A DNA stretch of 9,907 bases from Nitrospinota bacterium (lineage in GTDB: Bacteria > Tectomicrobia > Entotheonellia > J063), in assembly GCA_003696125.1 (NCBI GenBank), contig RFHZ01000505.1:1-9907 (forward strand). The letters run 5' to 3'. Below the pieces are notes generated by a model. That model made no database searches and had not been told where the DNA came from. It saw nothing but the letters and a program-made list of their open reading frames with translations. This document shows, piece by piece, positions 3,921 to 8,557 of the stretch. The translations under genes were made by a program, and so were the position numbers. The number at the start of each line of letters is the position of its first letter. Position 1 is the first letter of the stretch.

Positions 3921-5825
3921 TTAATCCGCTGCAGAAGTAGCAATCTGTTCTGGGGCAAGCCAGTCGAGGTCGAGCTCGGCGAGTTTGGCCCGTGTGGGAT
4001 AGCCGGTGTCCGGATCCCAGCCAGCCATCTGGTAGTAGAGGCGTAGCGCCTCGGCAAACTCCTTGCGGTCGAGCTTCTTCCCTTTCAAGGCACCGCTCTG
4101 TAAGCCTTCAAACATCCGATCGGGCAGGGTATCGTCCGCCTTGGTGAACCCTTCCCGGAAGTTAAATATCCGCGCCATGGTGTTGGCGCGTTCTCCTACT
4201 TTTAACAACTCCCACAGACTGGTATTCCAGCCGGTCACACTGCGGACAAACTCGACCAGCTTTTCCAGTCGCACATGCCCGATCGGTACCCCGTCAAAAT
4301 CGCACATTCCCACCGAATTATAGAGGCTCCAGACCGCCTGGCAGTAGTAGAAGGCCTTGACCTTCTTCGGACCGAGATCGAGTCGATCCACCGGTTCGAC
4401 CAGCCCCAGAGGAGAGAGCGGATTCATCTCTTCATGCCCAAAGGCTTCATAGAACGGGTCATGGGGCGCTTCCATGTGATCTGCACCGGTGGGCGAGGTG
4501 GCATAGGCGATGGCCAGACTGCGTTTCCCACGCGGTTCATGCATGGGCAGTTCCTGGCCTTTGACATGCAGGGCAAACTTCTCCGCCCCTTTGCCGATCT
4601 TCTCGGCAGCACGTTTGACCCCTTCGGCCAGGATATCCCCGATTCCCTCACGGCGACCGATCATCTCGATGAGCTTGATGGCCGCCTCTTCATTGCCGAA
4701 GTTGAGTTCCAGCCCTCCTGTGTCCTCTTTGGTGAGGATACCGTTTTCATAACACTCCATGGCAAAGGCGATGGCCATACCGGTTGAGATGGAATCGAGC
4801 ACGTATTGTCCCAGGAGCTGGTTGGCCAGGGCGATCGACTTCAGGTTGCCGATACCGAGCAGGGAACCGTTGGCGGCAATGGTTTCGTACTCGGGGCCCC
4901 CGTAGCGCGGATCAACACCCAACTCCTCCACCTTTACCTCACGTTTGCAGGCTACCGAGCAGCCATAGCAGGTGCCCCGGTTTACCAGGATCGTCTCCTT
5001 CATCGTCTTACCGCTGATCTCCCGGGCAAATTCGAACGATCCCTCGCGGAAGTTGCGCGTGGGAAGGATACCATCCTGATCCAGGCTGGGAACACCACGC
5101 GATGTCCCCATGTCGTGCATCGGATCGTTTTCCCGGTCGTAGTGTTCCTTAAACCACTTGTATACGGTGAACATCGCCTCTTTATCCGCCGGCTGTGGCT
5201 TGTTCTTCCCCCTGACCGCAATGCCCTTCAGGTTTTTGGATCCCATGACCGCACCCATACCGCACCGGCCATTGAAGTGCTTCAATTCGTTGACCAGGGC
5301 AGCATAGCGCACCAGATTCTCCCCGGCCACACCGGTCTGGAGTAAGCGTACCCCCTTGACACCGACATCCGCCTTGATGATCTCTTCCGCCTCACCGGCC
5401 AGCTTCCCCCAGGCCTTGGAGGCATCACGGATTTCAGCCTGGCCGTCGTGTACCCAGAGATAGACCGGTTGGGGGGCTTTCCCTTGGATAACAATGCCAT
5501 CAAACCCGGCAAACTTCAGCTCTGGTCCCCAGTACCCGCTCGCCTCTGCCTCTCCATAGCCTCCGGTCAGGGGAGATTTGGCTACCGCAGAGAAACGGTT
5601 GGCACCGGACATGTTCATGCCGGTGATCACACTGCACATCAGGATCAGCATGTTCTCCGGTCCTAAGGGATCTACACCCGGTTTTAACTCCTTGAGCAGA
5701 TAATACGTCGCCAGCGCCCCTCCACCCAGATAGCGCCGATAGATCGACTCGGGAAGCTCTTCGGTCCAGGTCTTTCCTTCGGTCAGGTCTACCCGTAAGA
5801 TCTTTCCGTTAAATCCATAAGGCAT
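3921..5825 (-). CDS. aor: Aldehyde:ferredoxin oxidoreductase, tungsten/molybdopterin type
   Basis: A 634-residue cytoplasmic enzyme of the AOR family, normal full length. These enzymes oxidise aldehydes to carboxylates, or run the reverse on acids, using a tungsten-bis-pterin centre and one [4Fe-4S] cluster, with ferredoxin as electron carrier. The N-terminal domain begins GFNGKILRVDLTEG and has the pterin-contact segments GANRFSAVAKSPLTG (about 74-88) and GRCGMGAVMGSKNLKGIAV (186-204). The cluster ligands are CYGCSVAC (Cys286, Cys289, Cys293) and Cys508 in SVGMCDF. DSISTG (344-349) is also typical. In the second pterin motif the usual Asp is Asn503 (NSVGMC). The substrate cannot be told from sequence. 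AAAGGAGG sits just ahead of the ATG, and a promoter-like site lies 96 bp upstream. No ferredoxin, pterin synthesis or tungstate transport gene is in the window. The enzyme class is oxygen-sensitive, pointing to anaerobic or microaerobic life. Confidence 0.95.
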   Translation of the reverse strand: MPYGFNGKILRVDLTEGKTWTEELPESIYRRYLGGGALATYYLLKELKPGVDPLGPENMLILMCSVITGMNMSGANRFSAVAKSPLTGGYGEAEASGYWGPELKFAGFDGIVIQGKAPQPVYLWVHDGQAEIRDASKAWGKLAGEAEEIIKADVGVKGVRLLQTGVAGENLVRYAALVNELKHFNGRCGMGAVMGSKNLKGIAVRGKNKPQPADKEAMFTVYKWFKEHYDRENDPMHDMGTSRGVPSLDQDGILPTRNFREGSFEFAREISGKTMKETILVNRGTCYGCSVACKREVKVEELGVDPRYGGPEYETIAANGSLLGIGNLKSIALANQLLGQYVLDSISTGMAIAFAMECYENGILTKEDTGGLELNFGNEEAAIKLIEMIGRREGIGDILAEGVKRAAEKIGKGAEKFALHVKGQELPMHEPRGKRSLAIAYATSPTGADHMEAPHDPFYEAFGHEEMNPLSPLGLVEPVDRLDLGPKKVKAFYYCQAVWSLYNSVGMCDFDGVPIGHVRLEKLVEFVRSVTGWNTSLWELLKVGERANTMARIFNFREGFTKADDTLPDRMFEGLQSGALKGKKLDRKEFAEALRLYYQMAGWDPDTGYPTRAKLAELDLDWLAPEQIATSAAD

Positions 5826-7297: not shown

Positions 7298-7327
7298 ATG
7301 GGAATCTTTGTCAAGGAGGAGAAAAGG

Positions 7328-8491
7328 ATGAAGTTTATCTTGAGTCCAGAGCAAGAGATGTTACGGAAGATGGTACGGGAACTGGCCGAAAAGGAGTTTC
7401 GCCCCCGGGCAGCGCGATGGGATCGAGAGGAGGCTTACCCCTGGGAGAATGTTGAACCCCTGGTGCAGGCCGGGTTGATGGGGATGACGATCCCCCCAGA
7501 ATATGGAGGCGGGGGGAAAGGGGTGCTGGAGACGATCATCGCAGCCGAAGAAATCGCCCGCGTCTGCGGCGTGACCGCCCGCCTGGTGGTGGAGGGAAAC
7601 CTGGGCACGGTAGGGGTCCTGGTGCACTACGGGAGCGAAGCCCAAAAGCGCAAATATCTTCCCTGGATCTGCCAGGGAGAGAAACCGGCCATCGCCATCA
7701 CCGAACCGGAAGCCGGTTCGGCTGCCACCGATCTGCAGACCACTGCCGAGTTGGATGGGGATCATTATGTGCTCAACGGGACCAAGTGTTTCATCACCGG
7801 AGCCGGCGTCTCCCGCCTCTATCTCGTCTTTGCCCGTTTCAACCGTGTGCCCGGTGCGCGAGGAATCGGGGCACTCCTGGTAGAGAAGGGAACTCCCGGC
7901 TTCTCCTTTGGTCGGCGGACCCCCATGATGGGACTGCGGGGTATCCCGGAGGGGGAGCTGATCTTTACCGGGTGCCGGGTACCTCGCGAGAACCTGATCG
8001 TAGAACCGGGAGAGGGATTCAAGCGATTGATGCAGGCCTATAATGGGCAGCGCTGTGGGGCGGCAGCCGTGGCATTAGGCATCGCCCAGGGAGCCTTTGA
8101 CCTGGCCGTGCGCTACACGCAGGAGCGCAGGCAGTTCGGACGAGAACTGGCCGATTTCCAGGGGATACAGTGGATGCTGGCCGACATGGCCATCGCACTG
8201 GAGGCGGGAAGACTGTTACTGTACAGGGCAGCGGCTGCTGCCGGAGGTACCCTGCTCCCTCCTGCCCTGGAGACAGCCATGGCCAAGACCTACATCGGAG
8301 AGATGGCGGTGGAGGTGACCAATACGGCGCTCCAGATCCATGGGGGCTACGGGTATTCGCGGGATCTGCCCCTGGAACGGATGGTACGGGATGCGCGCAT
8401 GTTTACCATCGGTGGAGGGACGGCTCAGATGCTGCGCACCCTCATCGCCTCCCAGGTCCTGGGACGGAAGATCAGCCAGAGAAAGGAGTGA
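7328..8491 (+). CDS. Acyl-CoA dehydrogenase-fold flavoprotein lacking both usual catalytic Glu positions
   Basis: A 387-residue, full-length cytoplasmic member of the FAD-dependent acyl-CoA dehydrogenase superfamily. It has the family signatures AITEPEAGSAATDL (123-136) and QIHGGYGYSRDLPLERMVRDAR (336-357), plus the FAD-contact segment QERRQFG (265-271). Against medium-chain enzymes the gapless match of GEGFKRLMQAYNGQR (228-242) puts Gln241 where long-chain and isovaleryl enzymes keep their catalytic Glu. The match of TIGGGTAQMLR (360-370) puts Gly363 where medium- and short-chain enzymes keep theirs. Arg85 (TARLVV) is also unusual. Candidates are a 3-sulfinopropionyl-CoA desulfinase-like enzyme or another non-dehydrogenase; a dehydrogenase with a different base remains possible. 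The start at 7328 is chosen because AAGGAGG lies eight bases upstream; an in-frame ATG at 7298 would put this site inside the gene. A severed second gene begins three bases after the stop, showing that this was once an operon. Confidence 0.93.
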   Translation: MKFILSPEQEMLRKMVRELAEKEFRPRAARWDREEAYPWENVEPLVQAGLMGMTIPPEYGGGGKGVLETIIAAEEIARVCGVTARLVVEGNLGTVGVLVHYGSEAQKRKYLPWICQGEKPAIAITEPEAGSAATDLQTTAELDGDHYVLNGTKCFITGAGVSRLYLVFARFNRVPGARGIGALLVEKGTPGFSFGRRTPMMGLRGIPEGELIFTGCRVPRENLIVEPGEGFKRLMQAYNGQRCGAAAVALGIAQGAFDLAVRYTQERRQFGRELADFQGIQWMLADMAIALEAGRLLLYRAAAAAGGTLLPPALETAMAKTYIGEMAVEVTNTALQIHGGYGYSRDLPLERMVRDARMFTIGGGTAQMLRTLIASQVLGRKISQRKE

Positions 8492-8494
8492 GCC

Positions 8495-8557
8495 ATGACG
8501 AGTCAACCCACCTTCCTGGCCATCGATTCGGGAACAACCGACGACACTATCACCTGA
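8495..8557 (+). pseudogene. Severed 5' end of an ASKHA-type (probably FGGY carbohydrate) kinase gene
   Basis: An ATG three bases after the preceding stop, with AAAGGAG six bases upstream, opens a 20-codon frame, MTSQPTFLAIDSGTT followed by five unrelated residues and TGA. FLAIDSGTT is the first phosphate-binding strand of ASKHA ATPases; the form fits FGGY sugar kinases best, with acyl-CoA dehydratase activators and related ATPases as alternatives. A full gene would be about 1.3-1.6 kb, so nearly all of it is missing. Homology appears to end near 8539, only about 25 bases before the 3' end of the desaturase gene on the other strand. A genuine short peptide is unlikely. The break could be an insertion, a deletion, or an assembly join. 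Confidence 0.65.

Follow-up and report, generated by a model that had tools for sequence, protein, structure and literature searches.

The window, a contig of 9,907 nucleotides assigned to a Nitrospinota bacterium, contains a gene for a protein of the acyl-CoA dehydrogenase (ACAD) fold that carries glutamine and glycine at the two positions where such enzymes keep their catalytic glutamate. This raises the question of which reaction an ACAD-fold enzyme performs without its base. A sequence-only reading had proposed a desulfinase-like, non-oxidising lyase comparable to Acd, the 3-sulfinopropionyl-CoA (3SP-CoA) desulfinase of Advenella mimigardefordensis DPN7 (PDB 5af7, 5ahs; NF042439). Sequence and profile searches, fold, phylogeny and diagnostic residues all side with Acd.

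Fold and active-site residues

The reading frame translates without internal stops and its ATG is preceded by a ribosome-binding site (Table 1); starting instead at the in-frame ATG at 7298 would lengthen the protein by 10 residues. Each of the three Pfam acyl-CoA dehydrogenase domains is matched (3/3). Among PDB entries, Acd (5af7) is closest in sequence, with E 4.9e-112 and about 50% identity, and outranks butyryl-CoA dehydrogenase 5ol2; the top NCBIfam model is NF042439, 3-sulfinopropanoyl-CoA desulfinase (9.7e-158, 524.8 bits), with acryloyl-CoA reductase second at 412.6 bits, 112 bits lower. The curated equivalog cut-off of NF042439 is 600 bits, and the window protein falls under it, as do the other deep branches described below. 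Scores drop with depth, from 651-682 bits in sampled crown members to 525 in the window protein, 510 in L013, 487 in L036, 396 in L012 and 362 in the Glu-bearing P0002.

An AlphaFold2 model gives a confident fold over the full length (pLDDT 92.2, pTM 0.93). Its best Foldseek matches are 5ahs and 5af7, which VIA-align superposes with a Z score of 58.0 and an rmsd of 1.3 over 383 residues; rat SCAD ranks next by fold (Z 53.4). A non-catalytic or decaying paralogue might be suspected in a single gene that stands without pathway neighbours in a fragmented assembly, but the intact reading frame with its ribosome-binding site, the confident full-length fold and the retained active-site residues make this hardly credible.

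Table 1. Coordinates of the gene, its active-site codons and the partner gene found in relatives (window positions unless a locus is named).
Feature	Position	Strand	Remark
ACAD-fold CDS, 3SP-CoA desulfinase clade	7328..8491	+	387 aa
Shine-Dalgarno-like AAGGAGG	7313..7319	+	8 nt ahead of the ATG at 7328; read directly
Arg85 codon, equivalent to Arg84 of Acd	7580..7582	+	proposed sulfinate-binding residue; from the Acd alignment; kept in 80/80 homologues
Glu89 codon	7592..7594	+	conserved acid, one helix turn past Arg85; Asp88 in Acd
Gln241 codon (in YNGQR), equivalent to Gln246 of Acd	8048..8050	+	IVD catalytic-Glu position
Gly362-Gly363-Gly364 codons	8411..8419	+	loop equivalent to YEG in MCAD
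Gly363 codon (in IGGGT), equivalent to Gly366 of Acd	8414..8416	+	
Thiamine-diphosphate partner gene	L027:7191-8798 and 24 other loci; L129 around 18573-20123		

The catalytic glutamate is missing both in loop JK (Gly363) and in helix G (Gln241). Comparison with dehydrogenases bears out the positions assigned by the sequence-only reading: Gln241 stands where human IVD has its glutamate (LDLER), and Gly363 stands at the glutamate of MCAD, which reads IYEGT where the window protein reads IGGGT. Human IVD has IGAGT (GAG) in the loop, and MCAD has DKTR, with Thr ahead of Arg, at the 241 site. The resemblance to Acd claimed for the active site also holds, as alignment to 5af7 sets Arg85, Gln241 and Gly363 opposite Arg84, Gln246 and Gly366 and is free of gaps around the arginine. 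Glycine is by itself a common residue at the MCAD-Glu position: Gly or Ala is also seen there in enzymes with an IVD-type base, so the weight rests on Gln241 together with Arg85, which are the telling feature. Acd shares with the window protein the fold, the residue trio and many clade-specific residues, but it differs in having AGG rather than GGG in the loop and Asp88 in place of Glu89.

A scan of GTDB genomes yielded at least 575 relatives, and the 80 best were retained. The Arg/Gln/Gly trio is present in 80/80 of these nearest homologues and in 0/18 outgroup sequences, a distribution that excludes chance; because the 80 were picked by similarity to the window protein and Acd, the count measures conservation inside the clade and not frequency in the superfamily. 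Glutamate at position 89 is likewise found in 80/80 kept homologues, and Glu or Asp is conserved at this site across the whole clade. An ordinary dehydrogenase that draws its base from elsewhere, for example from Glu89 at the end of the Arg85-bearing helix, could explain this conservation. Such an enzyme is nevertheless highly unlikely here, since Acd, reportedly without dehydrogenase activity, has Asp at the same site, and the C. necator N-1 homologue, reportedly an assayed desulfinase, has Glu.

Position among base-bearing and base-less relatives

Maximum-likelihood analysis of 57 rows places the sequences with the trio in one clade (97/87), in which Acd is nested and the window protein lies near the base, in agreement with a desulfinase-like identity. 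L012, the window protein, L013 (Chloroflexota) and L036 (Desulfobacterales) branch off in this order before a crown supported at 100/99, whose members include Acd and sequences of Pseudomonadota, Acidobacteriota, Actinomycetota, Myxococcota and other groups. With the trait columns removed, support is 95/87 for the clade without L012 and 87/72 with it. Both trees, full and with the trait columns removed, rule out a position of the window protein inside a proven dehydrogenase clade.

Thirty-three positions are diagnostic of the clade, being nearly fixed within it (the window protein was excluded from the definition) and seldom seen in other sequences; the window protein agrees with the clade at 25 of them. 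R85, V88, G158, E208, Y238, Q241, A245, M358 and F359 are common to the window protein, Acd, L012 and L013, and all nine are present in the C. necator N-1 homologue. We know of no assayed enzyme that lies as deep in the desulfinase clade as the window protein. The window protein is an early-branching relative of the 3SP-CoA desulfinase that extends a known family into a poorly sampled lineage, not a new kind of enzyme.

The tree-adjacent rows L010/P0002, L116 and L118 (46-52% identical) have Glu at 241, within the motif NSER or DLER, lack Arg at 85 and are presumably true dehydrogenases. Since these neighbours carry the glutamate without the arginine, the simplest history is an exchange of Glu for Gln and the gain of Arg, which suggests that the ancestor was probably a dehydrogenase with Glu at 241. 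In genome G001, from the window's class, the ACAD-fold protein L119 reads NTQR, with Gln in place of the IVD base, and has a loop Gly, but it lacks Arg85. L119 is a second base-less lineage; thus, Gln alone does not define the desulfinase group.

A decarboxylating dehydrogenase like IaaF (benzylmalonyl-CoA dehydrogenase) would also dispense with a base, as loss of an alpha-carboxylate would replace proton abstraction, and Arg85 would then bind the carboxylate. IaaF has no Glu in the YEG loop and carries the motif GGG there (PMC8360864), as does the window protein at G362-G364. However, IaaF performs an oxidative decarboxylation, belongs to indoleacetate operons and forms a sub-branch separate from the desulfinase in the published tree (PMC8360864). 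In the tree built here, without IaaF sequences, the window protein groups with Acd, and GGG is the common form within the desulfinase clade. An IaaF-like activity is accordingly very improbable. The window contains no iaa-type neighbours.

Gene neighbourhoods

The window gene is a single gene flanked on one side by a DUF1614 gene and on the other by a fatty acid desaturase gene, both on the opposite strand, and no CoA-transferase (act), mdo, lysR or sulfite export gene lies within the 9.9-kb contig. Among the 80 loci of relatives, a class III CoA-transferase gene is beside the desulfinase gene in 13 and a LysR regulator is beside it in 12; in the deep branch L036 the CoA-transferase gene lies directly downstream. 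TRAP transporter parts also occur among the neighbours. An acetolactate synthase-type thiamine-diphosphate enzyme is encoded immediately downstream in 25 of the 80 loci, mostly overlapping or within 100 bases; no role in the 3-sulfinopropionate pathway is known to have been assigned to it. Another frequent neighbour, seen in 16 loci (L019:5144-6547 and 15 others), encodes a TPR-repeat protein of about 470 residues.

In Advenella, and unlike in the window, genes for a family III acyl-CoA transferase and a LysR regulator adjoin acd and mdo (PMC5373536). In Variovorax TBEA6 the cluster includes act, acdA and mdo together with ilvX, an acetolactate synthase-like gene; the ilvX product is more abundant on 3SP, and deletion of the gene left growth on TDP unchanged (PMC6370202). 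Judged by kind of gene, the neighbours found in relatives match the published 3SP clusters. Annotated plasmid records have genes for a cysteine dioxygenase (Mdo type), a CoA-transferase and sulfate/sulfite exporters beside genes named 3-sulfinopropanoyl-CoA desulfinase; the plasmid records gave matches with the Acd sequence as query at 1e-70 and none with the window protein as query at 1e-110. On pBB1 of C. necator N-1, the desulfinase homologue and a thiamine-diphosphate enzyme are encoded 5.4 kb apart on one strand.

The window comes from a draft assembly of 990 contigs with 95% completeness and 8% contamination, and gene absences from it are therefore weak evidence. A 16S gene was not found in this assembly. 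The window's GC content (0.577) fits that of other contigs sampled (0.563-0.605), while the estimated 8% contamination leaves the assignment of the contig unproven. In this draft genome, class III CoA-transferases have 13 matches, of which the closest to the L036 partner shares 41% identity with it, and the best match to the conserved thiamine-diphosphate partner is only 33% identical; no CDO-family thiol dioxygenase (Mdo, 3-mercaptopropionate dioxygenase) was found.

Three further observations concern the surroundings of the gene. An ATG directly after it opens a 20-codon frame (8496-8557, plus strand; MTSQPTFLAIDSGTTDDTIT) that resembles the truncated beginning of a sugar kinase with an actin fold, or of a similar ATPase; it may be a gene remnant. 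An aldehyde ferredoxin oxidoreductase (AFOR) gene lies nearby (3921-5825, minus strand), with its best matches outside the window's class-mates, and another (L114:7007-8971) lies near a Glu-bearing relative in genome G036; this recurrence may be coincidence. The AFOR family is usually oxygen-sensitive, and the fatty acid desaturase on the same contig (8564-9727, minus strand) is of an oxygen-requiring type, a combination that may point to facultative or microaerobic life.

Proposed reaction, substrate and significance

The best explanation, to which we assign a probability of roughly 0.7, is that the gene encodes a base-less ACAD-fold flavoprotein that has given up acyl-CoA oxidation and instead releases a beta-carbon sulfinate group from a short acyl-CoA; the substrate is most likely 3SP-CoA, which would yield propionyl-CoA and sulfite. 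Structural work on Acd reportedly found no dehydrogenase activity, an inactive Arg84Lys variant and Arg84 in a position to contact the sulfinate. The residues that the Acd mechanism appears to need are present in the window protein, which argues that 3SP-CoA or a close analogue is desulfinated, with Arg85 anchoring the sulfinate. By analogy with Acd, Arg85 would bind and polarise the sulfinate in the acyl pocket, and with Gln241 and Gly363 in the base positions the alpha proton would have no carboxylate close by, so that dehydrogenation would not start. Water would take the sulfur as sulfite, the beta carbon would be protonated, and FAD would remain bound with no net redox change.

As the physiological substrate, 3SP-CoA is a likely candidate rather than a certain one, as the branch lies outside the well-sampled crown, the NF042439 score is under the cut-off and the genome has no recognisable upstream pathway. 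The same score counts against 3SP-CoA desulfination, as do the want of pathway neighbours, the failure to find a CDO-family (Mdo) gene in the genome, and matches there of just 33% for the thiamine-diphosphate enzyme and 41% for the CoA-transferase. Because the branch split off before the characterised crown, the base-less scaffold could perform a similar C-S cleavage on a beta-anionic or beta-sulfinyl acyl-CoA other than 3SP-CoA. The depth of the branch, the scores below the cut-off that it shares with L012, L013 and L036, and the failure to find Mdo and a close pathway partner in the genome would fit another substrate. The clade-diagnostic residues are kept, however, and L036, also deep, still has its adjacent CoA-transferase; we regard another substrate as unlikely for the window protein.

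Desulfination of 3SP-CoA remains the preferred reading, and a broader proposal can be made for the deep branch as a whole. The window protein, L012, L013 and L036 might represent an early desulfinase whose natural substrate is another beta-sulfinyl or beta-anionic acyl-CoA, in hosts without the oxygen-dependent thiol dioxygenase route. The proposal is a tentative one; if it is true, the known 3SP enzyme would have arisen late from a more ancient activity on organosulfur compounds.

Most knowledge of the desulfinase comes from a small number of Betaproteobacteria able to grow on synthetic thio-acids. The present analysis follows its active site through many phyla and brings out a probable transition from a Glu-bearing dehydrogenase to a Gln/Arg desulfinase, together with a conserved, unexplained thiamine-diphosphate partner. 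This makes it possible to test how the switch evolved and where 3-sulfinopropionate comes from in nature.
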